Assembly (NCBI RefSeq): GCF_004151235.1
Contig: NZ_JUIV01000003.1
Location: 186,001 to 250,000 of the forward strand
From: Flavobacterium anhuiense
Lineage (GTDB): Bacteria > Bacteroidota > Bacteroidia > Flavobacteriales > Flavobacteriaceae
Direction of reading: 5' to 3'
Length of the DNA: 64,000 bases
The number at the start of each line of letters is the position of its first letter. Positions within the stretch are counted from its first letter, which is position 1. Positions 11,171 to 31,918 of this stretch are shown here, in pieces. The notes beneath the pieces were generated by a model, which had not been told where the DNA came from, did not search any database, and saw only the letters and a list, made by a program, of their open reading frames with translations. Made by a program: the position numbers and the translations under genes.

Positions 11171-11263
11171 TTCTACTCTCCCTTTTTTCGCAATAAACAG
11201 CTAAATATTTTTAAAATTAGCTGATCAAACGTAAAATCTAACAAGACACAAATGAACCTCGAT

Positions 11264-11271
11264 TAAATTTG
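11264..11271 (+). promoter_or_regulatory. Candidate -7 element upstream of mcrB
   Basis: TAAATTTG fits the Bacteroidetes -7 consensus TAnnTTTG exactly and would start a transcript near 11278, about 43 nt before the mcrB ATG. No clear TTG is found at the -33 distance, so this is only a candidate. It lies in the 150-bp gap after hsdR, which shows no other structure. Confidence 0.35.
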
Positions 11272-11320
11272 TAATTGAGATAAATTTAACTAGCATTAAA
11301 AAAAAATAATTACAAAAAAT

Positions 11321-13372
11321 ATGGTTGATTTTAAAATACTAAAAATTTCACACGGTACTTATTTTTTTTCTCTTGAAGATCATAAATTTATGCTTCAACA
11401 TCGTTTAGCAAGTGTTCATCCAAATACTTCTGCAATGGGGGTCTCAGGAACAACTCAATATGAGAATTTTATTAATGCGAAAAAAGGAGATGTTTTTTTT
11501 ATTTGTCGTTCCAATGAATCGGTTAATGTAATTGGAATGTTCAGAGATGAAAGACCTCTACATTCACTTATGAAAAACCATTATGAGGAATGGATAGACC
11601 GTGAATTTATTGTCTTATATGAACCACAAGATAAAAACAATTATGATAAAACCAAAGACAAATGGTGGTTGCCTGGCAATAATTCAACTTGTAATGAAGT
11701 AAAAAATAATGAATTTCATCTTTTTGAAGAAAAAATACTAATGCCAGCATTTGGCAAAAATATAGAAGAGTTAGAAGAAAAAAGAAGTCAGGAATTGAAG
11801 AAGCTTGAAATGTCTATTTCTGATATATCTAAAATCCAATCTGTATTTGATGAATTATCACAAAACGATTTAAAAATTTTTGAAATAATAAATAATTTAA
11901 GTCAAATAGAAAAACTCAAAATCTATTATGAATATAGTAGTAAAGGCGACATTGATAAACAACCTGTAGTTTCTCTAAGAAAAAAAAATATCCAGTATTT
12001 GGTTGAATCGAATTCTCCATTAACAAAAGAAAAGGTTGAAGAGTTAAAAAAAGAAGTTGCAAATCAGTTTGACAAAAATGTCTTCCAATCATGGAGTTCT
12101 TATTTCAGAATTTTATACCCTATCTATTACCATCAATATAAAACTGATGTTGTTCGATCAATAAAAAATCTTATCAATGATACAAGAAAAGATTTAGATA
12201 TTGAAAGTTTTACAAAATCAAACTTTGTACATTTTGACGGAGCGCAAAACCAAGGATTTAATAGAGTGTGGTTTGCTATCTACAATTCTAGTCATAAAAA
12301 TCAAAAATCAGCTAAACAACTATTTTTTAACATTTATAATGGTGGGTATGAGTTTGGATTACTTTCTCATAAAAATCCATCTATAAATAAACTAATTAGC
12401 TCACAGAATTTTGATTACCAAGAATTACTTGAGGTTTATAGAAAATTTATCCCTGAAATAAAAGAAGATGATAACACTAAATATACAGAAATGAACGATT
12501 TAAAAGAGTTATTAGAATATAAAAAACAAATTATACTACAAGGTCCTCCCGGTACTGGAAAAACCTATACAGCTAAAGATCTAGCAGAATTTATTGTAAA
12601 CGACACAGTCAGTATAAATAAGAAAGAACAAGCAGAATATATTTCAAAATGTAATCAAATAGATATCATTCAGTTTCATCCTGCTTACACGTACGAAGAT
12701 TTCATTAGAGGAATTATCACCGAACCATTTGGAGATAAAGTTATCTATACTTCGAAGGATAAATTGTTTTTGGAAATGGTAGAAAAAGCGTCAAGGAATA
12801 GTAATCCACATATATTAATTATTGATGAAATAAATAGAGCAAATTTATCTTCAGTTTTGGGAGAATTGATTTATGCTTTAGAATACAGAAATGAATCTTT
12901 CAAATCGATGTACGCCAACAAACAAGGCATTTATGAAATTACTATTCCTGAAAATTTATACATTATTGGAACTATGAATACAGCTGACCGAAGTGTAGGT
13001 CATCTAGATTATGCATTAAGAAGAAGATTTGCTTTTTATGATATATTACCTAAAAATTTTGAACAAGAAGAAGCCTTTCAATCAGAACTATTCCAATTAG
13101 TATCTCGTTTATTTGTAAAAGAAATAAAATCATCTACTGCTGAATTAGAAGCATCAGAACATTTAAGTTTAGAGTTTCAAGATAGACCGCAAGACATTTG
13201 GCTTGGGCATAGCTACTTTTTCAAGAAAGAAAATATGGATTTTAGTCTACAATTAAAATATGAAATTGTTCCCATATTACAAGAATATGTTAAAGATGGT
13301 ATTTTAAATAATACTGAAGCAGTAGCGCAAATAATTAAAGATTTACTAAAATATCAAGATGTCAATTCTTAG
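11321..13372 (+). CDS. mcrB: McrB-like AAA+ restriction protein with a reader-like N-terminus
   Basis: This 683-residue protein has Walker A GPPGTGKTY from residue 408, Walker B IIDEINR with Asp502, and GTMNTADRSV followed by LDYALRRRF. This is the exact signature of McrB-family AAA+ motors. The first 130 residues (WWLPG, IDREFIVLY, FINAKKGDVFFI) resemble an EVE/YTH-like pocket that could recognise a modified base, unlike the DUF3578 domain of E. coli McrB. A helical linker follows at about 140-280. The gene overlaps mcrC by 14 nt. The pair should restrict modified incoming DNA, and the reader identity is inferred from weak similarity only. Confidence 0.9.
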   Translation: MVDFKILKISHGTYFFSLEDHKFMLQHRLASVHPNTSAMGVSGTTQYENFINAKKGDVFFICRSNESVNVIGMFRDERPLHSLMKNHYEEWIDREFIVLYEPQDKNNYDKTKDKWWLPGNNSTCNEVKNNEFHLFEEKILMPAFGKNIEELEEKRSQELKKLEMSISDISKIQSVFDELSQNDLKIFEIINNLSQIEKLKIYYEYSSKGDIDKQPVVSLRKKNIQYLVESNSPLTKEKVEELKKEVANQFDKNVFQSWSSYFRILYPIYYHQYKTDVVRSIKNLINDTRKDLDIESFTKSNFVHFDGAQNQGFNRVWFAIYNSSHKNQKSAKQLFFNIYNGGYEFGLLSHKNPSINKLISSQNFDYQELLEVYRKFIPEIKEDDNTKYTEMNDLKELLEYKKQIILQGPPGTGKTYTAKDLAEFIVNDTVSINKKEQAEYISKCNQIDIIQFHPAYTYEDFIRGIITEPFGDKVIYTSKDKLFLEMVEKASRNSNPHILIIDEINRANLSSVLGELIYALEYRNESFKSMYANKQGIYEITIPENLYIIGTMNTADRSVGHLDYALRRRFAFYDILPKNFEQEEAFQSELFQLVSRLFVKEIKSSTAELEASEHLSLEFQDRPQDIWLGHSYFFKKENMDFSLQLKYEIVPILQEYVKDGILNNTEAVAQIIKDLLKYQDVNS

Positions 13373-14669
13373 AATAAGAGAAAATTTTGTTTCCAGCATT
13401 CACGGATTAAACTCGATCATAAATTATGAAGCGAATTGGAAACCTCATTTATTAAATTGCCTCACAAATAAAACAGAATTCAAAATAAAGTGTGATAAAA
13501 TTGATGCCGAAATCAATTGTATTGAACTTAAAAAAAATGGTGATGACATTCACTTAAATACTTCTTATTTAATAGGATTAGATTACTTAGAAAACAATAT
13601 ACCATTCGTGGTTGAGCCAAAGTTTGAAGATGATAAAAAAGAATTTTCAATTAACTTTTATGACATATTATTCAAAAGTTTACCTTTTGTAAAAAGTACA
13701 GAAGACATTTCGGATCTATACTTTGTCGATTTTTCAAAACCAACAATAGAAATTAATCAGCAAGATGATTATTTAACCCCTATATTGATTATTCAGTTTA
13801 TAATATATTTAGATAAAATCTGTCATTCAGGTCTACAAAAGGGATATTATTGGGTAGAAGAAAATTTAGATAATAAAATAAAAGGAAAAATTTTAGTAAA
13901 AAACACTGTTAAATTTAATCATTTAAAATCAAATTACACAAAAACATATTGTCGTTATCAAGAATTTGGAATTAATACACCTGAAAATCAATTTTTGAAA
14001 TACACTCTTCATTTTTGCTTAAGTTATCTCAATCAATTTAAAAAGCTAGAACTAGTTAATAATTTAGAAAGCAAACTAGGCTTTATAAAAAGCTCATTGC
14101 AAAATGTAGATTTAAAACTATCATTAAGAAATGAAATTCTCATTAAAAAAAATCCACTTTTTCCACTCTATGAAAATGCATTAAAGCTTTCAAATCTTAT
14201 ATTAAAAAGAAACTCTTTTAATATTACCAATACAACCAAAAACATAGTAAACACTTATCCGTACTGGATTAATATGAGCAAATTATTTGAAATTCATGTT
14301 TTAAGATTGCTTCGTACAACTTTTAAAGAAGGAATCTATTTTCAAAAAGAATACGCTGGTCGAATTCCTGACATCATAATAAATCAAAAAGATCTTAAAG
14401 CTATAATCGATGTTAAATATAAAGCTTATGCAGAAAAATTAATAGAAATAGAAGATATCAGACAAATAGCTGCTTACGCAAGGATGAAACCTATTTTTAA
14501 AGAATTAGGTCTGCAAGCACACGAAATTTTAGATTCTATTATTATATATCCAAAAGTAAATAGTGAAAACTTAGAATTAAACCAAGAGGTTCTCGATAAA
14601 AAAATAGAAAGTAATTACTATAATATCTATGCTTTAGATGTATCCATTCCAACTATAAATAAATATTAA
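13359..14669 (+). CDS. mcrC: McrC-like nuclease subunit of a type IV restriction system
   Basis: The 436-residue McrBC 5-methylcytosine restriction component has a PD-(D/E)xK catalytic centre near the C-terminus. RIPD ends at Asp338, and after 12 residues comes DVK at 351-353. The N-terminal half is the variable part that docks on the McrB hexamer. It starts inside the last codons of mcrB, so the two are coupled. It is the last gene before the tRNA-like repeat at 14824, which suggests the McrBC genes form the right edge of the left-hand mobile segment. Confidence 0.9.
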   Translation: MSILRIRENFVSSIHGLNSIINYEANWKPHLLNCLTNKTEFKIKCDKIDAEINCIELKKNGDDIHLNTSYLIGLDYLENNIPFVVEPKFEDDKKEFSINFYDILFKSLPFVKSTEDISDLYFVDFSKPTIEINQQDDYLTPILIIQFIIYLDKICHSGLQKGYYWVEENLDNKIKGKILVKNTVKFNHLKSNYTKTYCRYQEFGINTPENQFLKYTLHFCLSYLNQFKKLELVNNLESKLGFIKSSLQNVDLKLSLRNEILIKKNPLFPLYENALKLSNLILKRNSFNITNTTKNIVNTYPYWINMSKLFEIHVLRLLRTTFKEGIYFQKEYAGRIPDIIINQKDLKAIIDVKYKAYAEKLIEIEDIRQIAAYARMKPIFKELGLQAHEILDSIIIYPKVNSENLELNQEVLDKKIESNYYNIYALDVSIPTINKY

Positions 14670-14823
14670 AATATTATTTTACGAACAAGAAACTGAATTT
14701 AAAAGTAAAGGCGTCAAGTCCTTTATAATTTATTCAAAGTAAAAACTTTTTTAAACTACCGAAAATTTTAAAGAAACTATAAATTCTAAATTGGACTTAA
14801 AATTTTTAAATCGTCAGTAAAAT

Positions 14824-14855
14824 GGTTCGAGAATTGTCCCGTTAGGGCTACTAAG
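14824..14855 (+). repeat. Direct repeat copy 1, tRNA 3'-end-like (putative att site)
   Basis: This 32-nt sequence begins GGTTCGA and ends TAGGGCTACTAAG. It matches the copy at 30210-30241 at 31 of 32 positions, and about 20 nt of weaker similarity precedes both (both have TTTTTAAATC). GGTTCGA is the T-loop signature of tRNA genes, and GTCCCGTTAGGGCTA reads like the T-stem and acceptor strand of one, but no tRNA body precedes it. Displaced tRNA 3' ends of this kind mark the far end of integrated elements. The att role is inferred. Confidence 0.6.
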
Positions 14856-14867
14856 TAAAAATTAAAA

Positions 14868-14898
14868 GCCGAGAAATCTAGATTTCTCGGCTTTTTTT
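14868..14898 (+). terminator. Rho-independent terminator after att-like repeat 1
   Basis: A perfect 11-bp stem (GCCGAGAAATC, loop TA, GATTTCTCGGC) is followed by seven T. It sits 12 nt after the tRNA-like repeat, as a native terminator would follow a tRNA gene. Confidence 0.85.
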
Positions 14899-15001
14899 GT
14901 GGTTCGAAAAATCTCGTTTCATTTTTTTTAAATAAAAAAACCACCAAAGTTTTCAAGGAAAATTGGTTCGAGTCCTGTTTAGTCAAATAAAAGACTCAAA
15001 T

Positions 15002-15655
15002 TCAAAAATAAATCTTCAAAACAGCAGTAAAAACAGCTAAACTTTTGCTAAAACAGATTGTACGTCTGTTGAGTCTTTTCAGATGGGTTCTGAGCGTCAG
15101 ATTCTTTCTTTCAATATGATTTGTCCCGAAACGTTTTGCTGAATGCATTTTCTCATCAATCAAATACCTGTAGTTTTTAAGCCTGTCCGTAAATATCTTT
15201 TTTGCTTCTGCCAATTTCAGAGTTTCCAAAACACGGTTTAGAGTTTTATTAGTTCGTTTGCCTACATTAAAACTAACCACATTTTTAGAATTCTTTTCCA
15301 AAGCATAAACCAGCCAGATATAATTTTTCTTGTGTCTGATATAAGTACACAGTTCATCTACTTCATACGTTTTGCCTTTGCTGACTATTGGCCTGGTTAT
15401 ATTTCTTACAATGGAGACAATTCTTTTCAATAATGTTGTCGCTGATATTTTTAATACTCTTGCCGTGCTTCTTATTCCTATAGCTTCTTTGGTGAACAGC
15501 ACTATCTCCTGATTGAGATCTCCTTTGTAAGCTTTGTACCTATAGTTAATCTGCTGTCGCTTTTGACAAATAGTACATTTATAACGCTGATTACCTTTAG
15601 ATTAAAATCCATTCTTTATGCATTCACCATTGCAAAAATTACATTTTATTTTCAT
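15002..15655 (-). pseudogene. IS1-family transposase with an in-frame stop
   Basis: The frame starts at the ATG at 15653-15655 with a zinc-ribbon (CNFC, later CTIC) like InsA, and continues into an InsB-like catalytic domain with VDELCTYI, FTDRLKNY and HIERKNLTLRTHLKRL (the IS1 D, D, E region), ending at 15002. Codon 18 is TAA where related proteins probably read Gln (one C-to-T change). The remaining intact frame from 15502 gives 166 residues and lacks the zinc-ribbon. The transposase is therefore probably inactive unless readthrough occurs. I could not define terminal inverted repeats. The IS lies at the left edge of the RiPP island, next to the att-like fragments. Confidence 0.8.
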
Positions 15656-15721
15656 GACCTAATTTGAAACACGAAGGTAAGGCAAAAGCATTTTAAGGCT
15701 TATTAAAAGACAAAAAACGAG

Positions 15722-15750
15722 AGAGACGACCTGCTGGCCGTCTCTTTTTC
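15722..15750. terminator. Rho-independent terminator between the IS remnant and the RiPP exporter gene
   Basis: AGAGACG (15722-15728) pairs with CGTCTCT (15739-15745), with a CC/GG extension inside, followed by a T-run on the plus strand. The minus strand also has a T-rich flank, so it may terminate the RiPP operon reading leftward. Confidence 0.6.
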
Positions 15751-15883
15751 TATTCAACAATTTAACTTTAACACTCTTTTTCAGTTAGTTACATGCGTAT
15801 GTTATCAAAACACCTAATCTGTAACACTACCAATTGTTTTCAAAATTAAGCAACTTTCTTAAGGGATCGTAAAAGACTAAAAA

Positions 15884-18076
15884 CTAATTTCCTAATTCCA
15901 ATTGATTTTTAACCAATTTAAAATAATCAGACTGTTTTTTAACCAATTGCTCATGATTTCCTATCTCGGAAACTTGACCATTTTTAAGAACTACTATTTG
16001 GTCAGCATTTTTAACAGTACTTAAACGATGTGCTATAATTAAAACGGTTTTTCCTTTAAAGAATTTTTGCAAATTATTATGAATAATTTTTTCGTTTTCA
16101 GCATCTAGAGCAGATGTTGCCTCATCAAAAAAAATGTAATGCGGATCTTTATAAATAGCTCTCGCAATAAGGATTCTTTGCTTTTGGCCTCCAGACAATC
16201 CATTTCCAGAAGCTCCAATTTTAGTTTTATACCCTAACGGTAAACTTTCTATAAAATCTTCAATATTTGCTACTTTAACCGAATTTTCTAATTTTTCTAC
16301 ATCTATTTTCTCATCACCACAAACTATATTTCTTTCTATTGTATCAGAAAATATAAAACCATCCTGCATTACAACACCACAATTTTCGCGCAAATTTTTA
16401 GGCGAAAGAATTTTTATATTCTCTGAATTGAACAGTACATCTCCTGCTGTTGCCTCATAAAATTTTAGTAGTAATTTCATAAGTGTGGTTTTCCCGCTCC
16501 CACTTGCCCCCACTATGGCAGTTACTTTTCCTTCTGGAATTATAAAATCGATATTTTTTAATACATAAGCTGATTTAGGCCCTTCATATTGGAATGAGAC
16601 ATTTTTCAGAAATATTGCCGAATTCTCGTTTTTAACTAAGGATAATTGTTTTTGATTTTTCTTTTCTTCCGTTTCATGGTTTTGAACTTCATTCAAACGT
16701 TCTAAACTTAATTTTGCATCTTGCAGCGAACGAAAAAAATTAACTAATTGACTAACAGGAGAGTTTAACTGACCTACTATATAAGAAACACTTAGTAATT
16801 CTCCCAATGTCATTTTACCTTTTACTACCAATGTGGCAGCTAAAAAAGTTACAACGATATTTTTTATTTGATTTAAAAAATCAAAACCAGATATTTGAAT
16901 TTGGTCTAGTTTCAAAACTTTAATATTTGTCTCGAACAATTTTTTTTGAATGATTTCCCATTGATTGCGTTTAAAGTTTTCAAACTGATTGATTTTCATT
17001 TCTGTTACTCCATTGATTATCTCGAATATTGATTCCTGATTTTCACTACGTTGCTGAAATTTTAAGTAATCTAATACTCTGCGTTTTTTTAACCAATAAA
17101 ATGACCAAGAAACAGATATTATAGTTAGAAGAAAATAAACAGTTAATATGAAAAAATCATAATACCATAACACTCCAAAAAAAACAGAAAAAGTAATAAT
17201 TGAAAAAAAAGTCAATAGGCTCTGCGAAGTCAAAAAGTATTCTATTCTTTCATTATCTTGTATTCTTTGATTAAAATCTCCCATCAATTTTGTTTCAAAA
17301 AAATTAATTGGCAACTCTAATATTTTTTTTAAAAAACTTGAGATTATAGTAATACTTATTTTGGTTCCTATAATTAACATTAACCAATTTCGTATTATAT
17401 CAATTACAATTGAACCCAAAAACACTAACAATTGTGAGAGCAAGATAATGCTTATAAAATTTAAATCTTTTTTGTTTACTCCTTTATCTATTAAGTTTTG
17501 AGTCAGAAATGGAAAAATTAATGTCAAGACACTTCCTAATAAAAGAAGGAAAAACATGTAAAAAATTTGTTTCTTATAAGGTTTTAAATAACTTAAAATA
17601 TATTTTAAATTTAAACCTTGACTTTTTGGTGGTGTCATATTAAAAAATAATTCTGAAGGCTTTAAAAATAACAGTATCCCATCCTTTTCATCAGTAATCC
17701 ATGATTTTTTAAAAATTTCTTCCCGTAATTTAATACATCCATGCGCTGGATCGGCAATATAAAAAGTTCTGTTTTTTGAAAATCTGCTTTTTGATATCTT
17801 ATACAAAACGACAAAATGATTTTGATTCCAATGAAGAATTATGGGCAATGCTTCTTGTTCCGCAAGCAACTCTTCTATAGATATTTTTGCAGCAAAACTC
17901 TTCAAGCCAATAGTATTTGCAGCTTCAACAATTCCTAATAAAGAAACTCCTTCACGCGTAATAAAGGAGTTTTTTCTAAGATACTCTAATTCATATTTTT
18001 TTCCATAAAAACTTGTTATCATTGATAAGCAAGCTGGACCACAATCCATCTGGTCATTTTGTTTAACAAATTTCAT
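15884..18076 (-). CDS. Peptidase-containing ABC transporter (C39 leader peptidase plus exporter)
   Basis: The 730-residue protein has three parts. An N-terminal C39 cysteine peptidase carries Gln6, Cys12 (MDCGPACLS), His87 and Asp109. A transmembrane ABC domain spans about 160-440. The ATPase has Walker A GASGSGKTT, signature LSGGQKQR and Walker B IFFDEATSALD. Such exporters cut precursors after a Gly-Gly motif and secrete the core. Four precursors ending their leaders in KxxGG lie upstream on the same strand, so they are the likely cargo. Its ATG overlaps the stop of the radical SAM gene by 1 nt (TAATG). All catalytic residues are present. No membrane-fusion protein or outer-membrane factor is encoded nearby. 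Confidence 0.92.
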   Translation of the reverse strand: MKFVKQNDQMDCGPACLSMITSFYGKKYELEYLRKNSFITREGVSLLGIVEAANTIGLKSFAAKISIEELLAEQEALPIILHWNQNHFVVLYKISKSRFSKNRTFYIADPAHGCIKLREEIFKKSWITDEKDGILLFLKPSELFFNMTPPKSQGLNLKYILSYLKPYKKQIFYMFFLLLLGSVLTLIFPFLTQNLIDKGVNKKDLNFISIILLSQLLVFLGSIVIDIIRNWLMLIIGTKISITIISSFLKKILELPINFFETKLMGDFNQRIQDNERIEYFLTSQSLLTFFSIITFSVFFGVLWYYDFFILTVYFLLTIISVSWSFYWLKKRRVLDYLKFQQRSENQESIFEIINGVTEMKINQFENFKRNQWEIIQKKLFETNIKVLKLDQIQISGFDFLNQIKNIVVTFLAATLVVKGKMTLGELLSVSYIVGQLNSPVSQLVNFFRSLQDAKLSLERLNEVQNHETEEKKNQKQLSLVKNENSAIFLKNVSFQYEGPKSAYVLKNIDFIIPEGKVTAIVGASGSGKTTLMKLLLKFYEATAGDVLFNSENIKILSPKNLRENCGVVMQDGFIFSDTIERNIVCGDEKIDVEKLENSVKVANIEDFIESLPLGYKTKIGASGNGLSGGQKQRILIARAIYKDPHYIFFDEATSALDAENEKIIHNNLQKFFKGKTVLIIAHRLSTVKNADQIVVLKNGQVSEIGNHEQLVKKQSDYFKLVKNQLELGN

Positions 18077-19374
18077 TAACTTATCGCATACATAAATTTA
18101 TCCTTAATAATTTCAATTTTTTTACTTTCATCAAAATTGTGAATACAATATTCTATGCCCTCATGTTCTATTGCTTGTTGTGAGCATCCTCCATTACAAA
18201 TAGGTAGTATTTTACAACTTAAACAAGGTGGATTCTTAAATTTTGAATTCATCCTTCTTTCGTACTTTTCATTCCATTCAATTTTGCCATCTTGATTTAA
18301 AACTCCTTCTTTTGATGCAGATTCGAAGTCACGCGCCGTACATTTGTAAACCTCACCATTGTAGTTAATAGTTGCGTGGTTATTTTTGTCAGCATAACAC
18401 GAATTACGAACTGTATCCAGATTTACCCCTTTATAAATAGAATTGAATCCTTTTTCTCTAAACAGATTAACAATCTTCTGTACATCATCGTTAATATCTT
18501 TTTGTTCTTGCCAAACCTCGTGAAACGAAAAATTTAAATACTTTTTATCTTCATCATCTAAAATGATAAAGTCATCAATGATTAAATGTAATTTCTCTAT
18601 TGTTTCCTCAGAAATATTCAATCGCACACTCACTTTAAATTTATTCTTTAAACATAGATGTATATTATTTACTATTTCGTCATAAGAGCCTTTTTCTTTA
18701 GAAACGTATCTTACCTGATTATGTCTTTCTCTATGTCCATCTAATGTAATTTGAAAGAAGTTTACCCCATTTATCCTGCAACTATCTAACATTTCTTGAT
18801 TAATAAGTAATCCATTAGTGGTAAAGCCTGATGAAAAATTGACATTCCTCTCTTTCATTTTAGGATAAATATCTTCCAATATTGGCTTAACTGTTTTGTC
18901 AAAATATAATAACGGCTCACCTCCAAACCAGCTTAAATGAAATGTTTCCAGTTTTTTTCTTTCAACAAGAATATTTTCAATTAATTTCACAACAGATATT
19001 AATGTTGTATTGGTCATTTTAGATGCTTTGATATGAGTTTCATAGCAATACCAGCACTTAAAATTACAATTCATTGTCGGATTAATGGTAAGTTGGTAAA
19101 AAGTCTCATTGCCGAAATCTACTTTTCTTGACAATTCTTTTACTTTTTCAATTTCGTCTTCGTCGATATTTACCAAAAAACCTTTTTCAATCAGATGTGA
19201 ATAAAATTCAGGATGGATTTCATTTAACTCTCCAAGATTATTTTCTCTCACTGCAGCCTGCAAAATTTCATATAATTCAGGATCCAAAATTGTAAAATCG
19301 TTGGCAAATGCATTATACCCGATTTTTCTATCTTCATAGTTAAAAAACGAATTAAATTGACTAAATTTCATCAT
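18076..19374 (-). CDS. Radical SAM/SPASM peptide maturase
   Basis: This 432-residue protein has the radical SAM cluster motif C103-x3-C107-x2-C110 (MNCNFKCWYC), the SAM-contact region SWFGGEPLL, and a C-terminal SPASM domain with CYADK, VYKCTARD, CLSCKILPICNGGC and CIHNF binding auxiliary Fe-S clusters. The first 90 residues are a winged-helix-like peptide-recognition region (LDPELYEILQ, HPEFYSHLIEKGFL). It is encoded between the precursors and the exporter, so it most likely modifies their Cys-rich cores, for example by forming thioether bonds. The chemistry is inferred. It has two possible start Met codons in tandem. Confidence 0.9.
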   Translation of the reverse strand: MMKFSQFNSFFNYEDRKIGYNAFANDFTILDPELYEILQAAVRENNLGELNEIHPEFYSHLIEKGFLVNIDEDEIEKVKELSRKVDFGNETFYQLTINPTMNCNFKCWYCYETHIKASKMTNTTLISVVKLIENILVERKKLETFHLSWFGGEPLLYFDKTVKPILEDIYPKMKERNVNFSSGFTTNGLLINQEMLDSCRINGVNFFQITLDGHRERHNQVRYVSKEKGSYDEIVNNIHLCLKNKFKVSVRLNISEETIEKLHLIIDDFIILDDEDKKYLNFSFHEVWQEQKDINDDVQKIVNLFREKGFNSIYKGVNLDTVRNSCYADKNNHATINYNGEVYKCTARDFESASKEGVLNQDGKIEWNEKYERRMNSKFKNPPCLSCKILPICNGGCSQQAIEHEGIEYCIHNFDESKKIEIIKDKFMYAIS

Positions 19375-19439
19375 AATCTTTGAAAAGTTGGTGGTTATAA
19401 TTCAATAACCACCGTTTTTAAATTATTAATTATATAATT

Positions 19440-19634
19440 TTATGTACATTGTATTTTGTTAGTACAATCTCCATTATTACCAGTACAAATTCCATTTAAA
19501 CAAGTGTCATTAGAATTTTCAGCATCTTTTTGTCCTCCTTTAATTTTACTTAACTGATCATCAGTTAATGACGAGAACCCTCCTGCAAATTTATCGTTAT
19601 TGGCAATCAGCCATGATTTTTTAAAATTTTCCAT
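19440..19634 (-). CDS. GG-leader RiPP precursor 1
   Basis: This 64-residue peptide has leader residues 1-34, containing GGFSSLTDDQLSKIKGG, and a 30-residue core starting QKDAE. The core has four Cys (TCLNGICTG, GDCTN, QCT) and ends in Thr. The leader pattern GGFxxLxxxQxxKIxGG is shared with the other three precursors and matches the double-glycine leaders of Bacteroidetes natural-product precursors. It is the precursor nearest the radical SAM gene (65 nt upstream). Cleavage by the C39 exporter after Gly34 is inferred. Confidence 0.85.
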   Translation of the reverse strand: MENFKKSWLIANNDKFAGGFSSLTDDQLSKIKGGQKDAENSNDTCLNGICTGNNGDCTNKIQCT

Positions 19635-19653
19635 TCTTCTTTGTTTTTAGTTA

Positions 19654-19854
19654 TTAACAACTCCCACTATTATTACATATACCGCCATTTCCACTTTTAG
19701 TACAATCGTTTTCGTTTGTACAAACTGCGTTCGTGTCGGCAGCATCTCTTTGACCTCCTTTGATTTTCAATATTTGATTGTCACTTAAGGATTCAAAACC
19801 TCCTCTAAATTTATTCTCAAAAATCTGCAATTTTAATTTTTTAGAATTTTCCAT
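19654..19854 (-). CDS. GG-leader RiPP precursor 2
   Basis: This is a 66-residue peptide from the ATG at 19854 (MENSKKLK), which aligns with precursor 1. A longer reading from 19884 would overlap precursor 3 and add ten basic residues without a counterpart in the paralogues. The leader ends KIKGG at residue 34. The core starts QRDAAD and has four Cys (VCTN, DCTK, ICNN and a C-terminal Cys). It is Gly/Asn-rich, as are its siblings. Confidence 0.83.
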   Translation of the reverse strand: MENSKKLKLQIFENKFRGGFESLSDNQILKIKGGQRDAADTNAVCTNENDCTKSGNGGICNNSGSC

Positions 19855-19870
19855 TTTTCTTTTTTTATTA

Positions 19871-20068
19871 CTAACAGCTACCATTTACGCAAGATCCAAC
19901 ATTAGTTTCTCCTGGACACGAACCATTTAGACAATTTGTATTTTGACAATCGGCATCTTTTTGACCACCATTAATTTTCTTCATCTGTTCTAACGATAGT
20001 GAAGAAAAACCACCTTTTAAAGCAAACTCATTGTTTCCTTTAGAATAGATTAATTTCGTTTTTTTCAT
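19871..20068 (-). CDS. GG-leader RiPP precursor 3
   Basis: This 65-residue peptide has a leader ending KINGG at residue 35 and a core starting QKDADC. The core has five Cys, more than its siblings: DCQN, NCLNGSC, GSC and the terminal GSC. A repeated NGSC/VGSC pattern suggests evenly spaced crosslinks. It lies 16 nt upstream of precursor 2 on the same strand and is clearly a paralogue. Confidence 0.85.
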   Translation of the reverse strand: MKKTKLIYSKGNNEFALKGGFSSLSLEQMKKINGGQKDADCQNTNCLNGSCPGETNVGSCVNGSC

Positions 20069-20222
20069 TTTTTAATCAGTTTAAATTTATATTTAATAAT
20101 TATTTACATGACATCACATACTTTATTACGATACATTGTTTTATAACAATCATTATTCGTAAATCCAATTACATTTTATTTCATTTTTATTAATAATTTT
20201 AATTTGATCTGTTAGCTAAGAA

Positions 20223-20405
20223 TTAACACCAAACTGCATTTGAGCAGTTTTCACAATTTGTATTGTGATCTACCTGACATACGTTTGATTCTTTATCTTT
20301 TATTCCTCCCTTAATCTTAGTTAATTGTGATGTACTCAAAAAGTAGAAACCTCCTATTAGTTTTCCATCGTTTTCAGTCAATTTAATTTTTAATTTTTTT
20401 TTCAT
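20223..20405 (-). CDS. GG-leader RiPP precursor 4
   Basis: This 60-residue peptide is the most divergent of the set. The leader ends KIKGG at residue 34 and keeps GGFYFLSTSQLTKIKGG. The 26-residue core starts IKDKES and has four Cys (VCQV, NCENC, terminal WC). Two more changes set it apart: Ile instead of Gln after the cleavage site, and an aromatic Trp before the last Cys. A 154-nt gap without a gene separates it from precursor 3. Confidence 0.8.
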   Translation of the reverse strand: MKKKLKIKLTENDGKLIGGFYFLSTSQLTKIKGGIKDKESNVCQVDHNTNCENCSNAVWC

Positions 20406-20433
20406 AATTTTCTTATTTAGTTATTTGTAAAAA

Positions 20434-22842
20434 TTAGTTTACCCTTTGTATTTCTTCTTGATTTCCCAGTTTTCGTTGTTTTACACCAATTTTGTTGCTC
20501 CCAAATTTATATAGCAACGAAAGCCTTATACTCTGAGTATCATAATATTGTCGAAAACTTTGGTCGATATTATTTGAAGTATAACTCATGGTTACCCTGT
20601 CAGATTTCAAAATATTAGTAAATAATAATGTTAACTGTAATTTCTTATCTAAGTAAAAGTACTTAAACGAGATATCAAGACTGGAAGCAGGTGCTTTTTT
20701 TACTTGCATTGACATTGATTGAAAATCATACCAATAAGCTCCTTCTATAAAAAATGTTTTTGCTTTGTTTGCAGTAAACGTATGGCGAGTTTCAAAACCT
20801 CCCCCTGCTCCTGAACCTGTAGCCTCTATTTCAGGTATATGACTTTTATATTCTACATAATAAAAATAAATGCTAGAAACTGTAGACCATCGTTTATTAA
20901 AATCAAAATTTATAGATTCATCAAGATTCACTCTATTATAGTCGGCATAATTTTCCCATGTGGCTGTTTGAGTATTATCTAATTGCGGAATGTTAATTTG
21001 ACTAATATTATTTTTACCTATAGTATAACTAGCGGAGCTAGTAAAGATGCTTTTGTAACTATGTTTGATTTCTGCATTGTATACGAAAGATGGCTGTAAA
21101 AAAGGATTACCAAATACGTAACTATTTATGGAACTATATCTTCTCGCTGGATTTACATAATCATATCCCGGTCTATTAATTCTTCTGTTCAATGAAAATG
21201 AAAATGAATTATTTTCATTTACTGTAAATGTTGTAAACAATGTTGGAAAAAACTTTGAATAGTTTTTTCGATTAGTTATATTTTCACTAAAAACGGCTCC
21301 CTTAGTTTGTGTGTTTTCGAAACGCAAACCAACTTTAAATTCCCATTTTTTTATTTTTTTGTTTGCTGAAAAATAAATAGCCTGAGTATTTTCTTGGTAG
21401 TCGAATTGAGTTTCCTGATTCAAAACATCTTCATTTGCTATATTATCATAAAAAAGAAGATTCACTGCACTATTGGTATTAATAAAACTTAACTTACCGC
21501 CATATTCATAATTTGCAAAATGACTTGGAATAATAAAGTCGATTTTACCAGCATAATTTTTTATTTCTAGATTACCTTTATTAATGACATAATTATCAAG
21601 AATGACATTATTTTCTTGATCAAGAATTATCGAATTGAATGGATTTATTTTGTTATTCTTATATGTCAGATAATCTAAGTCAAAAGTCATTAATTTTCCT
21701 TTTTCATTTAACTTAGTAACTCCATTTACATTTAAAGAAGATCTCGAATAGTCTATTTTAGAATTACCATTTGAAGTATAAATATTTTCCAGATCACCTG
21801 TTTCTTTATTAGTCACAATAGAGTTACTGTAATCATAAATTGTTGGCTTATTTGTCGTGCCAATGTATTGTACTCCAAGAGTAGTTTTATCGGTTACTTT
21901 ATAATTAAAGATAATTGTAGGCGTAATAAATGCTGTATTATTCACATTGTGTAAATAAACATTCCAGAAAGATGAAGGATAATTATAGGTAATATCGTTC
22001 TCATAAATTGTTTTTGATTTATTAAAACCTATATCTGCTAAAAAACTAATTTTCTTTTTTTGAAATGAAAAATTTGCTCCCATAATATCTGAAAAATATG
22101 TTGCTTGTTTCATTGTATTTCTCAGTGTTACATTCCAGCTGTCATTTTTAGGCCTTTTTAATTTTATATTAATCAAACCACTATTTCCTTCTGCATCATA
22201 TTTAGCTGGAGGAGTTGTAATGATTTCTATAGATTTTATATTATCTGATGAAATTGATTTTAAATAATTCACTAGATCATCTCCAGAAAGTTGAATTAAT
22301 CTATCGTCTACCATCAACCCTATACCACTTTTTCCTATCATAGATACAGTTTCATTTTGTACGCGTATTCCAGGAGCAACTTTCAGTGCATCCAAAGCAT
22401 CACCTCCTGATGCAGCAACACTATTTTCTACATTAAAAACAAGTCTATCTACTTTTCGTTCAATAAGCTTTTTTTTGGCAGTTACTACAACCTGCTGTAA
22501 TTGTTTTTCCTCTTCTATTAACTGAATGTCTCCCATGTCAATATCCTTATCAACTGTCAAATTTCTAGTATAAGTTGATTTTCCAATTTGCCTTATTTGT
22601 AAAATATAACTGCCCGATTTAACTTCAATTTGAAAATATCCTTTTTCATTGGAAAACGAGCTTTTTTCTGCAATACTATCTTTTGTCAGAACAATTGCTT
22701 CAGCAAGTTCTATTGGTCTGGAATTTGATTCAGTAATTTTACCTGTAATTTTTATTTGAGAGAATAATGCTATTGGCAATAATATTAGTATTAAAAAAAT
22801 TAGTCTTTTAATTTTATTCTGTTTTTTCAATTTTTGATTCAT
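20434..22842 (-). CDS. TonB-dependent-receptor-like outer-membrane beta-barrel protein
   Basis: The 802-residue protein has a signal peptide (LIFLILILLPIALFSQ), a carboxypeptidase-regulatory-like domain (about 30-110), a TonB plug region (GGDALDALKVAPG, IEIITTPPAKYDAEG) and a long beta-barrel of the outer_membrane_beta-barrel_3 kind ending in a C-terminal part rich in Tyr. It is the first gene of the minus-strand RiPP operon, 28 nt upstream of precursor 4. A role in passing the mature peptide across the outer membrane, in re-uptake or in self-protection is possible. The sequence alone does not decide. Confidence 0.85.
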   Translation of the reverse strand: MNQKLKKQNKIKRLIFLILILLPIALFSQIKITGKITESNSRPIELAEAIVLTKDSIAEKSSFSNEKGYFQIEVKSGSYILQIRQIGKSTYTRNLTVDKDIDMGDIQLIEEEKQLQQVVVTAKKKLIERKVDRLVFNVENSVAASGGDALDALKVAPGIRVQNETVSMIGKSGIGLMVDDRLIQLSGDDLVNYLKSISSDNIKSIEIITTPPAKYDAEGNSGLINIKLKRPKNDSWNVTLRNTMKQATYFSDIMGANFSFQKKKISFLADIGFNKSKTIYENDITYNYPSSFWNVYLHNVNNTAFITPTIIFNYKVTDKTTLGVQYIGTTNKPTIYDYSNSIVTNKETGDLENIYTSNGNSKIDYSRSSLNVNGVTKLNEKGKLMTFDLDYLTYKNNKINPFNSIILDQENNVILDNYVINKGNLEIKNYAGKIDFIIPSHFANYEYGGKLSFINTNSAVNLLFYDNIANEDVLNQETQFDYQENTQAIYFSANKKIKKWEFKVGLRFENTQTKGAVFSENITNRKNYSKFFPTLFTTFTVNENNSFSFSLNRRINRPGYDYVNPARRYSSINSYVFGNPFLQPSFVYNAEIKHSYKSIFTSSASYTIGKNNISQINIPQLDNTQTATWENYADYNRVNLDESINFDFNKRWSTVSSIYFYYVEYKSHIPEIEATGSGAGGGFETRHTFTANKAKTFFIEGAYWYDFQSMSMQVKKAPASSLDISFKYFYLDKKLQLTLLFTNILKSDRVTMSYTSNNIDQSFRQYYDTQSIRLSLLYKFGSNKIGVKQRKLGNQEEIQRVN

Positions 22843-23158
22843 TTATTTATTCTGTATTGTTTTAAAAATCTAAATTAAGATTGCCCATTTTTAAACATTT
22901 TGTTAATTCAAAGACTTCATAAATCTTTACAGTAAATAAATTAGAAACAACCTTAATTATTAGCTGAATTGAATAGAATGCTTAACAAAATACTACTAGT
23001 GATTTTTATAAAATGGTCTTTAGACTAAAATCCAAATTAATTATCTCATTATTTTATAGTCTTACTTTTTTGTCTTTAGTAATGTATTATTAAAAAAAGC
23101 ATTTCAGGTAACCGGAGTCAAAACTAGAGAAACATCTAACTGATAACAAATGTTGCTT

Positions 23159-23180
23159 CTCGAAATTCTTGAATCTCGAC
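23159..23180. promoter_or_regulatory. Operator-like dyad, copy 1 (upstream of the regulator gene)
   Basis: This 22-nt imperfect dyad begins CTCGAAATTC and ends CGAC. It is identical at 19 of 22 positions to the site at 25084-25105 before the lanthipeptide precursor. The centre is ATTC-T-TGAAT. It lies 112 nt upstream of the regulator's -7 element, in the shared divergent control region. Binding by the AraC-type regulator encoded next to it is inferred. Confidence 0.6.
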
Positions 23181-23291
23181 ATTTAATTCAGGAATTTAGT
23201 TTAAAAAAAATCTTAAAACACTAAAAACAAACACATTAAATTCGACCAAAAAAACATCCCTTTTAATGATGAAGTTTTAAAAGACATACCT

Positions 23292-23299
23292 TATGTTTG
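23292..23299 (+). promoter_or_regulatory. -7 element of the TPR-AraC regulator gene
   Basis: TATGTTTG fits TAnnTTTG. Transcription would begin near 23306, 14 nt before the ATG at 23320. An ATG at 23293 lies inside this element, which argues that 23320 is the true start codon. No matching TTG was found at the -33 distance. Confidence 0.45.
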
Positions 23300-23319
23300 T
23301 AGGAAATTATTTTTATTTC

Positions 23320-25047
23320 ATGAAATACAGTAAATTCATAAAAGTCCTATTTTTTACACTTACCCCTATTTTCTTTCTAGCTCAAAATAAAAACGAGGAT
23401 CTTACCAAATTATCATATGATGCTTTACATGATTTATATTTTGCCAATAGTGAAAATCAAAAACGACAATTCGAAATTGTGAAAACTTATTTGAATAAAG
23501 CTAATATTGAAAATATAGATATTAGAAAAGCAAAAGCATATTATCATTTTGCTATTCTGTATTATAAGAAAGATTCAGATAAGGCAATTAAATATTTAGA
23601 CAGTGTTATTAAATATTCACAAAATACAAAAGATCATTTTTTTCCCGCAGTTGCTTATTGTGAAAAAGCAGATCTTCTAAAAAGGAAGTATAAGTTTAAA
23701 GAAGCTATGTTAAATTATAATTTAGCTGAAAAGATAGCGATTAAAAACAATATTGATTATTATTATATTGTACGGGAATATATAGCAATAACTAAATCGG
23801 AAGATTTAGGTGATTATAATGAAGCACTCGATATTTTCAAAGAATGCTATGGATACTATAAACATAAAGATACCAGAAGCCCTAAATATGCTGGAGAATA
23901 TCAAAGTATCATTTTTGGATTAGCAGATTGCTATAAATCTTTAAAAAATATTGATTCCACAACTTATTATAATAATTTAGGATACCAAGAATCAAAAGCA
24001 ACTAATAATGAAGAATACAAATACCTCTTTGTCTTAAATGAAGGAGCAAACCAAGCATTAAAAAAAAACTACAAAATAGCATTAGACAGTATCGAAATAG
24101 CCTTACCAAAGATGATTTTTTACAACAATACTGGCAATGTGCTGGCAGCTTACTACTACCGTGGAAAGATATACGAAGGACTTGGGAAAAAGACACTTGC
24201 CGCACAAAACTTTATTAAGGTAGATTCTATAAATAACAAGACTGGAGTATACAGTGGAGAATTTATTGATGGCTATTCATTTCTTATTTCATACTACAAA
24301 AAACTCGGCAATAAAGAAAACCAATTAAAGTACATTATTACTTATATGAGTATAGATAGTACTTTACAAAAAAACTATAGAGCATTAAATAAGATTGTCA
24401 ATAAAGAATACGACATGCCTCATTTAATTTCGGAAAAAGAGGAATTAATTGATTCTCTTCATAATAAACAAACAAAATTTTATTGGGGGTTATGGATTTT
24501 TTTTCTAATTATTATTCTTAGTTCAGGATTTGGTTTATATCAATATGAACTCAAAAAAAGGTATCGTCTTAGATTTGAAAAAATAGTCAGTAATACGATA
24601 GAACTGCAGGAAAGCAAAATTAAAAATAGCCATATTGAAAAATTGAGTGCCAATTCAAAAAATGATGACAACATTGGAATTACAGAAGAAGTTGTAAATC
24701 AAATTTTAGAAAAACTCACTCATTTTGAGAATGAGAAAAAATATCTTGAAACTAATATTACAATACAAATTCTATCTAACTCATTTGAAACAAATAGCAA
24801 GTATATATCTAAAATAGTAAATACATACAAAGGGAAAACATTCATTCAATATATAAATGATTTGAGAATTGAATATGCTATTTCAGAACTTAAACAAAAT
24901 AGTAAAATAAGAAAATATACAATTCATGCTCTTGCATTGGAGTTTGGTTTTAACAATGCCGAGTCATTTTCTAGTGCCTTCTACAAAAAAACAGGCATAA
25001 AACCATCTTATTTTATCAAGGAATTAGATATGCAATCAGAAAAATAA
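23320..25047 (+). CDS. TPR-containing, membrane-anchored AraC-type transcriptional regulator
   Basis: This protein has 575 residues from the ATG at 23320, which gives a proper signal/anchor (MKYSKFIKVLFFTLTPIFFLAQ). Roughly residues 30-370 are TPR-like helices (ALLNYNLAEKIA-type repeats). One transmembrane segment lies at about 388-408 (LWIFFLIIILSSGFGLY), and a cytoplasmic AraC/XylS HTH pair sits at about 465-570 (ILSNSFETNSKYISKIVN, HALALEFGFNNAESFSSAFYKKTG). The layout suggests sensing of a periplasmic or envelope signal and direct DNA binding. It sits between the two RiPP operons with matching dyads upstream of itself and of the precursor at 25186, so it probably controls the island. Confidence 0.85.
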   Translation: MKYSKFIKVLFFTLTPIFFLAQNKNEDLTKLSYDALHDLYFANSENQKRQFEIVKTYLNKANIENIDIRKAKAYYHFAILYYKKDSDKAIKYLDSVIKYSQNTKDHFFPAVAYCEKADLLKRKYKFKEAMLNYNLAEKIAIKNNIDYYYIVREYIAITKSEDLGDYNEALDIFKECYGYYKHKDTRSPKYAGEYQSIIFGLADCYKSLKNIDSTTYYNNLGYQESKATNNEEYKYLFVLNEGANQALKKNYKIALDSIEIALPKMIFYNNTGNVLAAYYYRGKIYEGLGKKTLAAQNFIKVDSINNKTGVYSGEFIDGYSFLISYYKKLGNKENQLKYIITYMSIDSTLQKNYRALNKIVNKEYDMPHLISEKEELIDSLHNKQTKFYWGLWIFFLIIILSSGFGLYQYELKKRYRLRFEKIVSNTIELQESKIKNSHIEKLSANSKNDDNIGITEEVVNQILEKLTHFENEKKYLETNITIQILSNSFETNSKYISKIVNTYKGKTFIQYINDLRIEYAISELKQNSKIRKYTIHALALEFGFNNAESFSSAFYKKTGIKPSYFIKELDMQSEK

Positions 25048-25185: not shown

Positions 25186-25347
25186 ATGAAACGTAAAAGC
25201 GAAAAAAAGGAAAGCCCTAAATTTGGATTAGAAAGATTTGAAGTAGCAAGATTAAAAAATCTGACAGTATTAAAAGGAGGAGGCGATGATCCCGTTGACA
25301 CAAATAATACTACTAAAAAGCCATCTAATATCGACTGCGGTAAGTAA
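25186..25347 (+). CDS. Class I lanthipeptide-like precursor peptide
   Basis: This 53-residue peptide was read directly from the sequence. It starts MKRKSEKKESPKFGLERF and has FEVARLKNLTVLKGGG at 18-33. The LKNLxxLKGG block resembles leaders of Bacteroidetes lanthipeptide precursors. After GGG the core (about 34-53) holds four Thr/Ser-rich positions (DTNNTT, PSN) and one Cys (DCGK), so at most one lanthionine ring could form. A consensus promoter and an operator-like dyad precede it. The LanB-type genes downstream make it the probable substrate. A lone Cys and the absence of LanC leave the final structure open. Confidence 0.72.
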   Translation: MKRKSEKKESPKFGLERFEVARLKNLTVLKGGGDDPVDTNNTTKKPSNIDCGK

Positions 25348-25390
25348 CTGATAATTCTAGATTTAAAAATATATTAATTACAATATAAAC

Positions 25391-27082
25391 ATGAAACCCC
25401 ATTTCCTTATTATTTTTCTTTGTTGCTTTGTTGCCTGTAAATCCATACAAAAATCAGGTAATACTTCTTCTTTTAAAAGTGAATTAACGTCACAGGAACA
25501 GAGAAACTGGTATCAGAAAGATAAGGTTTTAGAGGGAATACCCGGCATATCATTGGATAAATGGTATGCCTCGAATAAAAAGAAACCCAAAAGCAAAAAC
25601 ATTATAGTAGCCGTAATTGATACCCAAATTGATATAAATCATGAGGATCTGCAAGGGCAATTTTGGACAAACAGCAAAGAAATTCCAAACAACGGAATTG
25701 ATGATGACAAAAACGGCTACATAGATGATATAAATGGGTGGAGTTTTACAGGGACTAAGAGCGGAGGTTACGTGGTTTGGAATAGATACGAATATGTCCG
25801 CATTATACAAGAATGGGGACCAAAGTTTAAAGATAAGACCAAATCCCAAATCGATCCTAAAGATCTTCCTAAATTTAACGAATATCAAAGAGCTCTAAAA
25901 AAATTTGAGGAAAAAATGCCATATTATAAAAGATGGTTTAAATCCTTAAATTACAAAGTCGCACTTTATCCAACCGCAAAGGACACTTTAAAACATTTTT
26001 TTCCTAAGGAAGATTACACTTATGAACAATTGGACAGCCTATACAAAAAGTATAAGATTAATGACAAAGAATTTTGGCAAAGACGAGATGATGGCGATAA
26101 AGATCTTGGAGCATTAATTGGCTGCATGATGGCTAATCTCGTTATGGATCAAAAAAAATTAAAAGATATTCAAGACATGCAGACCCAGCTGGACTCAATT
26201 GTAAACAAAAACCTGAACATAAACTACAACGAACGTCTATCGATTGGTGACAATCCTAATATTTTAGAAAAAGGTTATGGCAATAATAAAATTAGTAACA
26301 CCATAAAAGGCGTAAGAACAATTCAAGATCACAATACCATGGTCTCGGGAATTATTGCAGCTAACAGGAATAATAACATCGGAATAAAAGGCATCACAGA
26401 TGTAAAAATTATGCCTTTAAATATTTCTCCTTCTGGAGACGAACATGATAAAGATATTGCAATGGCAGTTCGTTATGCCGTTGATAATGGAGCTAAAATA
26501 ATTAATATGTCTTTTGGAAAAGAATTTTCCATGCATAAAGATTGGGTATCAGATGCTTTTAAATATGCCGAGGAGCATAATGTTCTTTTAGTACACAGTG
26601 CAGGAAACGACAGTGAAGACTTAGATAAAGCATTTCACTATCCTAATGATCAAAACTATGAGGGCATTAGAGGAATCTGCAATAATTTTATTAGTGTTGG
26701 CTCAACTACTAAGAATTTAGGAGAAAAATTAGTTTCTGATTACTCTAATTATGGCAAAGAAAATGTAGACTTATTTGCTCCTGGAGAAGATATTTATACC
26801 ACAGGAGCAGGAAACATATATAAAACAGATTCTGGAACTTCATTTTCAGCGCCTATGGTATCTGGAACTGCTGCAATAATTTGGTCTTATTATCCAAATC
26901 TTACAGCAGCTCAGGTCAAACAAATTATTATGGATTCTGGAACTGCATATGATTTCGAAGTTATATTACCGGGTACTGAAGACAAAAAAGTTCCATTCTC
27001 TGAATTGTCTAAGTCAGGAAAAGTTCTAAATGTCTATAATGCAATGCAACTCGCAGAAAAGGCCAGCAAGAAAAAGAAATGA
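25391..27082 (+). CDS. Subtilisin-like (S8) lipoprotein protease, probable precursor protease
   Basis: The 563-residue protein has a lipoprotein signal ending FVAC at Cys16, so it is probably anchored in the periplasm or outer membrane. The subtilase triad is complete: Asp77 (AVIDTQID), His314 (DHNTMVSG) and Ser484 (GTSFSAPM). A long insertion lies between Asp and His (about 110-300). In class I lanthipeptide loci an S8 protease (LanP) removes the leader after export. Its position between the precursor and the LanB genes supports this. The stop overlaps the LanB start by 4 nt (ATGA). Confidence 0.85.
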   Translation: MKPHFLIIFLCCFVACKSIQKSGNTSSFKSELTSQEQRNWYQKDKVLEGIPGISLDKWYASNKKKPKSKNIIVAVIDTQIDINHEDLQGQFWTNSKEIPNNGIDDDKNGYIDDINGWSFTGTKSGGYVVWNRYEYVRIIQEWGPKFKDKTKSQIDPKDLPKFNEYQRALKKFEEKMPYYKRWFKSLNYKVALYPTAKDTLKHFFPKEDYTYEQLDSLYKKYKINDKEFWQRRDDGDKDLGALIGCMMANLVMDQKKLKDIQDMQTQLDSIVNKNLNINYNERLSIGDNPNILEKGYGNNKISNTIKGVRTIQDHNTMVSGIIAANRNNNIGIKGITDVKIMPLNISPSGDEHDKDIAMAVRYAVDNGAKIINMSFGKEFSMHKDWVSDAFKYAEEHNVLLVHSAGNDSEDLDKAFHYPNDQNYEGIRGICNNFISVGSTTKNLGEKLVSDYSNYGKENVDLFAPGEDIYTTGAGNIYKTDSGTSFSAPMVSGTAAIIWSYYPNLTAAQVKQIIMDSGTAYDFEVILPGTEDKKVPFSELSKSGKVLNVYNAMQLAEKASKKKK

Positions 27083-31780: not shown

Positions 31781-31804
31781 TTGATTGATTGATTGATTGA
31801 TTGA
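31781..31804 (-). repeat. (TTGA)6 tetranucleotide repeat against a start codon
   Basis: There are six perfect TTGA units on the plus strand (TCAA on the coding strand), directly adjoining the ATG of the serine hydrolase gene at 31780. The tract occupies the place of the ribosome-binding region. A change in copy number would alter leader length by four bases and could change translation. Confidence 0.9.
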
Positions 31805-31918
31805 TGATTTTCTTAAACGAAAATAATAAAATATTATTACTACAATATATTTTCAAAAGTATATTATAACTATATATTTTTCTTAACCTGAAAATACAGT
31901 TGCATTACTAAAACAAAA

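Follow-up and report, generated by a model that had tools for sequence, protein, structure and literature searches.

A predicted ranthipeptide-like RiPP family of Bacteroidota with Cys-x-Asn core modules and an operon-encoded outer-membrane barrel

The 64,000-nucleotide stretch of Flavobacterium anhuiense DNA analysed here (the window) carries on its minus strand a seven-gene operon encoding an outer-membrane barrel protein, four Cys-rich precursors with GG leaders, a radical SAM/SPASM enzyme and a C39 exporter. It represents a real, conserved SPASM-RiPP family of Bacteroidota for which we found no name, and which would work most like a ranthipeptide system. We hold with moderate confidence that the family makes ranthipeptide-like peptides with Cys-Asn thioethers and encodes its own outer-membrane transporter. 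This reading makes a residue-level prediction, namely that the modified Asn lies at Cys+2 or Cys+4 depending on the enzyme lineage; its bold parts are this shift of register and the operon-encoded barrel.

Gene content and surroundings of the operon

All genes listed by a preceding sequence-only reading are present at the positions it gave and on the minus strand (Table 1), and domain searches confirm its view of a RiPP operon with a single SPASM enzyme and a single C39 exporter. From barrel to exporter, successive genes are separated by 28 and 154 bases, overlap by 14, are again separated by 19 and 65 bases, and finally overlap by one; such short gaps and overlaps suit expression as a single transcript. 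The ORF of precursor 3 overlaps the neighbouring precursor gene, and its true start is probably the internal Met11 (19854). The hairpin found by a consensus scan 3′ of the operon is terminator-like and is its putative terminator; the interval 15500-23400 contains five terminator-like sites, compared with 2.0 (sd 1.6) in shuffled sequences. Flavobacterial promoters follow the consensus TTTG-N17-22-TANNTTTG, which is matched five times in the window versus 6.25 by chance, and sigma-70-like sites are likewise at chance level (48 versus 46.4); no promoter is therefore claimed for the operon.

Table 1. Features of the operon and of the adjoining regions (window positions)
Feature	Positions	Strand	Description
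Outer-membrane beta-barrel protein	20434-22842	-	First gene of operon; PF14905 (Pfam 261 bits) and CarboxypepD_reg-like N-terminal domain
Precursor 1, 60 aa	20223-20405	-	Core 20226-20303 (after second GG), 4 Cys, module CSNAVWC
Precursor 2, 65 aa	19871-20068	-	Core 19874-19963, 5 Cys, modules CQNTNC, CLNGSC, CVNGSC
Precursor 3, 76-aa ORF	19654-19884	-	Core 19657-19752, 4 Cys, modules CTNENDC, CNNSGSC
Precursor 4, 64 aa	19440-19634	-	Core 19443-19532, 4 Cys, modules CLNGIC, CTNKIQC
Radical SAM/SPASM maturase	18076-19374	-	Pfam PF04055; N-terminal RRE-like unit (predicted)
C39 peptidase-ABC transporter	15884-18076	-	Pfam PF03412 (115 bits), PF00664, PF00005
Terminator-like hairpin	15722-15745	-	3′ of operon; 10-pair stem, then CTCGTTTTTT
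TPR-repeat and AraC HTH regulator, membrane type	23293-25047		Divergent from barrel gene
Class I lanthipeptide-like block	25186-30156		Small GG precursor ending DCGK, S8 protease, Lant_dehydr_N and Lant_dehydr_C as two proteins
Island-like stretch	1087-15502		MobC, relaxase, type I restriction system with Septu-like (PtuA/PtuB-like) pair inside, McrBC, IS1 transposase

The divergent TPR-AraC regulator was considered as a further operon member and rejected, a homolog being found in 9 of the 80 related loci described below, in seven of them beside a barrel gene. In F. tagetis (L007), no AraC regulator was recognised in the 2.6 kb preceding the barrel gene, where an HTH_3 regulator is found instead; the operon there adjoins genes which resemble, by eye, those at window positions 30302-33296, and both the AraC gene and the lanthipeptide block are absent, indicating that this block is separable from the operon. 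In the window itself, the LanB pair (27079-30156) is separate from the operon, no LanC was recognised among the ORFs, and neither LanB nor LanC, the enzymes of a class I lanthipeptide cluster, is among the seven operon genes. The region to the left of the operon is defence-rich and probably variable. In L010, a TPR-AraC copy with 60% identity occupies the same place as in the window, and is followed by a similar-looking small GG peptide (L010 306-476).

Relatives, leaders and divergence of the precursors

When genome contigs were scanned with the enzyme, 97 relatives emerged and 80 were retained; going by the titles of their records, nearly all belong to Bacteroidota, with one labelled Beijerinckiaceae. 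Precursors were listed by pattern (GG leader, at least two core Cys, proximity to the enzyme), which misses Cys-poor peptides such as those of L020; L002 had been excluded beforehand as a weak match. The resulting 142 rows come from 74 of 85 loci, namely L001, L003-L006 and 69 of the 80 hits, a few of them duplicates of others. Same-kind precursors were recognised by pattern in 69 of the 80 enzyme-bearing loci, so that the operon represents more than a chance assembly. An exporter homolog was found by clustering in 75 of the 80, and the presence of at least two precursors in 40 of the 74 precursor-bearing loci shows that several per operon are common. Nine loci (L027, L029, L031, L032, L035, L039, L040, L042 and L050, several of them Chitinophaga) contain an extra gene of about 286 aa together with an HlyD-like gene, and seven of these, plus L045, have Cys-free GG peptides with FKEYKPP; the nine represent a different operon layout. 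A Cys-free acidic GG peptide is also present beside an AraC gene in L060.

The distribution of the family is patchy. Counting the genome under study, the enzyme is present at E 1e-20 in 5 of 397 genomes from the taxonomic family; at E 1e-80, the figures are 10 of 395 for the order and 3 of 395 for the phylum. The F. anhuiense genome itself has a single copy and one further, weak match with 28% identity (E 9e-6). Among 72,556 plasmid records, only two carry the enzyme at E 1e-60, the Flammeovirga plasmid p1 and a mobilizable 30-kb Rhizosphaericola mali plasmid. The latter encodes five precursors, publicly annotated as hypothetical proteins, and a PF14905 barrel truncated at the record start. 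Among the papers listed in searches of the open-access literature, none dealt with this SPASM-RiPP family.

The leader GGFxxLxxxQxxKIxGG is matched exactly by all four window precursors, and the cores, counted from the second GG, comprise 26, 30, 32 and 30 residues with 4, 5, 4 and 4 Cys, three of the four ending in Cys, in full accord with the sequence-only reading. The strict double-GG motif occurs in 22 precursors from ten loci (the window, L007-L012 and L014-L016), and a looser double-GG pattern in 72 of the 141 unique precursors; GGF is found in 123 of the 141, the more permissive GG-[F/I] in 132, and the GG shared family-wide is the first one. It is the second GG which agrees with the canonical double-glycine consensus, and from sequence the leader is probably cut there rather than at the first. 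No NCBIfam family scored above its cut-off for the window precursors, and three proteins compared with PHROGs had no match. GG-leader RiPP precursors of the TIGR04149/Bacteroid_pep type likewise adjoin SPASM enzymes in Bacteroidetes (PMC8939145), but when 66 of the 141 precursors were scanned, no more than 4 matched TIGR04149 even at E 0.1, and no ATP-grasp gene is present in the window operon.

Compared with F. tagetis, the four precursors have diverged to different degrees. Precursor 1 evolves the fastest (dN 0.22, dS 0.25; all values are uncorrected proportions), followed by precursor 3 (dN 0.097, dS 0.31), while the changes in precursors 2 (dN 0.013, dS 0.23) and 4 (dN 0.026, dS 0.35) are mostly silent. 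The F. tagetis enzyme gene (L007 6001-7296), 95% identical to that of the window, contains an in-frame stop, a point against the reading favoured here; the frames of the four precursors and the exporter at that locus are open.

One fast-changing core, with dN near dS, would be expected if the peptides were narrow-spectrum bacteriocins directed against relatives, with the barrel providing immunity or serving as a kind of target, and C39 export, the defence genes nearby and the patchy spread with one copy on a mobilizable plasmid point in the same direction. At the same time, no immunity gene was recognised within the operon, and two of the four cores are nearly unchanged relative to F. tagetis. 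We regard such a role, which is compatible with a ranthipeptide-like product, as a serious possibility, albeit not the probable one; antimicrobial action and different targets for the individual peptides, as raised in the sequence-only reading, are not supported by any evidence.

The maturase and the Cys-x-Asn modules

The gene content fits a ranthipeptide locus, in which a radical SAM/SPASM maturase adjoins a Cys-containing precursor. Across 62 aligned enzymes (that of the window and those of 61 of the 80 hits), the radical SAM Cys 103, 107 and 110 and the SPASM-region Cys 326, 345, 384, 387, 393, 397 and 410 are each conserved in 61-62; the Pfam SPASM match of the window enzyme lies below the cut-off (15.6 of 21.5 bits). 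Its closest curated sequence families are TIGR04463, CefB (Cys-every-fifth) and Clo7bot, each of which is matched by all 62 enzymes at E 1e-30, but the window enzyme falls below their cut-offs (165.9 bits versus 525 for TIGR04463, the best curated family; 153 of 600 and 141 of 600 bits for CefB and Clo7bot, respectively). It also falls short of the PapB family NF047865 (121 versus 340 bits) and of the SCIFF/six-Cys family TIGR03974 (70 versus 425 bits), the window cores having four or five Cys. Since it stays far below every cut-off among the curated NCBIfam maturase families, its chemistry could differ from theirs.

The nearest solved proteins are 5wgg and SuiB, both by profile (E 4.6e-23 and 1.6e-14) and by single sequence (3e-16 and 7e-9); the 5wgg entry, presumably CteB, has a title concerning thioether bond formation. 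In an AF2 model with a pLDDT of 91.3, for which 5why/5wgg, SuiB and TigE are the top Foldseek matches, the enzyme most closely resembles SPASM peptide maturases that form thioether or C-C bonds, and the element list of its N-terminus reads as strands followed by helices in an RRE-like order. Domain, profile and fold searches place the enzyme in a thioether-type lineage outside every curated family, in keeping with the thioether-bridged class suggested in the sequence-only reading.

The cores were compared by counting Cys gaps of four and five residues only, with hits taken in list order, which follows score roughly but not strictly. In the close set (the window and hits 1-20, giving 43 cores from 19 precursor-bearing loci), Asn occupies Cys+2 in 17/17 C-x4-C and 48/48 C-x5-C gaps, and this 65/65 total does not represent 65 independent events, as the loci are related. 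In calling the cores different, the sequence-only reading misses the common rule underneath. In the distant set (hits 21-80; 51 loci with precursors, 88 cores), by contrast, Asn is found at Cys+2 in 6/50 C-x4-C and 7/42 C-x5-C gaps (13/92, eight of the 13 being in six loci that had earlier been added by eye), and at Cys+4 in 40 of the 50 C-x4-C gaps, typically as CxGGNC. L003-L006 are mixed, with Asn at +2 in three of eight gaps and both registers present. The Asn register changes with enzyme distance, from close to distant relatives.

When Cys were fixed and the other residues shuffled, C-x-N-x2/3-C was found to exceed expectation in the window cores (8 versus 1.7), in the 51 cores of a hand-chosen near set (79 versus 14.9) and in all 136 cores (88 versus 30); 19 near-set cores thinned to less than 55% identity contain 31 modules, compared with a shuffle mean of 5.9 and a maximum of 13 in 3000 shuffles. 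The near set consists of the first 20 hits and six loci picked by eye after the cores had been seen; the list-order counts are preferred, and with a recount by list order alone, the enrichment of Asn at Cys+2 in the close set holds. Nine of the 43 close-set cores have no module at spacing 2-3; cores in L011, L016 and L022 retain Cys-x-Asn with a longer gap to the next Cys, and one core each in L007, L008 and L017 has no Cys-x-Asn at all. What is near-invariant in the close set is Cys-x-Asn, the distance from Asn to the next Cys being variable. The five R. mali plasmid precursors, found later, have Asn in nine of ten modules and Asp in one; being 44-65% identical to those of L019, they provide an only partly independent check, and the Asp replacement fits an Asx acceptor.

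We propose that the conserved GG leader recruits the SPASM enzyme via its N-terminal RRE-like unit, as its fold suggests, and that the enzyme would then cross-link each core at the Cys-x-Asn modules. The link would most likely be a thioether between a Cys thiol and an Asn side-chain carbon, in ranthipeptide-like chemistry, with the thiol contributed either by the preceding Cys (i to i+2 in the window, i to i+4 in more distant relatives) or by the following one (Asn-x2-5-Cys).

Freyrasin contains Cys-Asp S-Cbeta and thermocellin Cys-Thr S-Cgamma thioethers, and their respective systems combine, as here, a radical SAM/SPASM enzyme (PapB and CteB) with a Cys-rich core; the CX3D spacing of freyrasin equals that of Asn at Cys+4 in our distant relatives. 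The present system differs in that the close relatives have Asn at Cys+2, the operon includes a TonB-dependent-type barrel, and the bond is a predicted one. The motif of a streptococcal Cys-Asn ranthipeptide is reportedly NxxC, whereas here it is Cys-x-Asn that is fixed and Asn-to-next-Cys that varies, in a different phylum. We know of no natural product built on such a short Cys-Asx separation. The CX3D link made by PapB connects Cys with the Asp beta-carbon, and in vitro the enzyme tolerates separations of zero to six residues between Cys and Asp (PMC9413430), which makes a C-x-N ring chemically possible. Peptides with a Cys-Asn S-Cbeta thioether made by a radical SAM enzyme are known from S. 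orisratti and S. porci (PMC11002830).

It is also conceivable, though on the whole unlikely, that the SPASM enzyme performs alpha-carbon sactionine formation, epimerisation or C-C linkage, with the Cys pairs forming disulfides outside the cytoplasm and Asn shaping a tight loop; Asn at the module could be structural (turn or disulfide loop) or an epimerisation site. SuiB forms a C-C bond and SkfB is of the sactipeptide type, and the presence of both among the neighbours of an enzyme which is below all curated cut-offs, along with the variable Asn-to-next-Cys distance, speaks for such a reaction. The split in register (65/65 versus 13/92), however, is more in keeping with a residue that the enzyme reads than with a passive loop, and the count of seven SPASM-region Cys equals that reported for CteB, Tte1186 and QhpD (PMC10352776). 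Two lineages with two registers would offer a natural comparison of ring-size choice by SPASM enzymes.

The exporter and the outer-membrane barrel

With its N-terminal Peptidase_C39 domain, ABC membrane and ATPase domains and GG-leader partners, the exporter has the composition of a C39 transporter, and by analogy with its family would cleave off the leader at one of the GG sites (probably the second) and export the peptide. The barrel would act as a TonB-dependent-type transporter serving the mature peptide; recognition and uptake by the producer are slightly favoured over export, because most TonB-dependent-type proteins do so. In an AF2 model (pLDDT 84), it has the overall fold of TonB-dependent transporters, with PhuR, FhuA and FoxA as top Foldseek matches, and judging by their titles, all 50 listed matches (query-normalised TM 0.44-0.56) are import-type TonB-dependent receptors or transporters; the Pfam Plug match reaches only 14.2 of 23.9 bits, and TonB dependence is putative.

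The sequence-only reading had considered a receptor unusual beside bacteriocin genes, which did not hold up for this family: a barrel was found in 68 of the 80 loci by clustering, and Pfam adds L047 and L052, bringing the total to 70 of 80, so the barrel normally belongs to the system and is no oddity. In 65 of these 70 loci it is encoded upstream of the enzyme in the same orientation; it follows the enzyme in L059, L063 and L066, and is on the opposite strand in L023 and L076; the distance between an upstream barrel and the first detected precursor is at most 400 bases in 53 of 56 loci. Among the ten barrel-less loci, the sequence of L009 and L067 starts shortly upstream of the enzyme, a different PF14905 protein is encoded at a greater distance on the opposite strand in L062 and L064, and in the remaining six no barrel was recognised in the fetched flank. 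A TonB-dependent transporter (ItfF) also occurs together with a radical SAM enzyme (ItfD) and a C39-ABC protein (ItfE) in the itf cluster of Bacteroides thetaiotaomicron (PMC11002830), and with this precedent the barrel is the less novel. The itf cluster has a YcaO amidine enzyme and an Ile-Thr-Phe core with a Trp-Ile C-C link, none of which is found in the window operon; without a YcaO enzyme, it is not of the itf amidine type.

A barrel tree was built from the window barrel and 63 of 74 clustered barrels longer than 650 aa (the 11 under 650 aa were dropped), with 34 controls, two of them partial (five own-genome paralogs and 29 from other genomes). All 64 operon barrels group with a single control, the own-genome paralog L089, with a support of 0.26, and together with three controls with a support of 1.0, a result flattered by the controls being from one taxonomic family only. 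L089 (L140 5553-7931) is a lone barrel that follows an AraC-like gene; no RiPP genes were recognised in its surroundings, and it is a possible orphan receptor.

Pearson correlations between distances in 58 loci are 0.68, 0.68 and 0.67 for the enzyme, exporter and barrel pairs, enzyme-barrel being 0.68. Spearman values are 0.63 for enzyme-exporter, 0.42 for exporter-barrel and 0.27 for enzyme-barrel, each above all 1000 permutations, indicating a coherent unit to which the barrel is bound most loosely; leaving out the few closest pairs, the barrel-enzyme correlation is 0.45. Co-divergence as proof of a dedicated barrel was rejected in view of the drop from 0.68 to 0.27 for enzyme-barrel, which also slightly lowers our confidence in the favoured reading. 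In 49 loci, the rank correlation of core distance, others being fixed, is 0.20 with the barrel (0.204, a value reached by 1 of 500 permutations), 0.28 with the enzyme and 0.03 with the exporter. Co-evolution of core and barrel as proof of binding was likewise rejected, since the leader correlates more with the barrel (0.321), and linkage of neighbouring genes suits this pattern as well as binding does.

The barrel could alternatively be the outer-membrane exit for the peptide, standing in for an HlyD/TolC pair. In the window operon no membrane-fusion or TolC gene was recognised, an HlyD-like gene cluster is present in only 10 of the 80 loci (one member is Pfam-confirmed), and the barrel gene is upstream and on the same strand in 65 of the 80; moreover, a TonB-dependent protein of Myxococcus is said to be required for protease secretion. 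Set against this is the import kind of all 50 listed structural matches, and we consider an exit function doubtful. That the peptides are metallophores, like the copper metallophore methanobactin, and the barrel their reuptake receptor appears very unlikely: the peptides are Cys-rich and predicted to be secreted, and the modelled barrel fold is most like haem and siderophore receptors, but no metal-related gene is found among the seven operon genes, and the thiol ligands would be lost if all Cys were cross-linked.

In its most extended and rather improbable form, the ranthipeptide-like reading would have the window clade naturally making a C-x-N thioether, a very small ring, and distant relatives C-x3-N, with the enzyme lineage setting ring size and the system's own TonB-dependent transporter recognising the peptides in a circuit of making, exporting and receiving. 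With the barrel encoded in the operon, the way in which RiPPs of Gram-negative bacteria cross the outer membrane becomes a testable question. Finally, the barrel proteins of F. tagetis (L007 2632-5007) and the window (20434-22842) are, by eye, strongly different in their N-terminal domain and otherwise similar, as if this domain had been exchanged by recombination.
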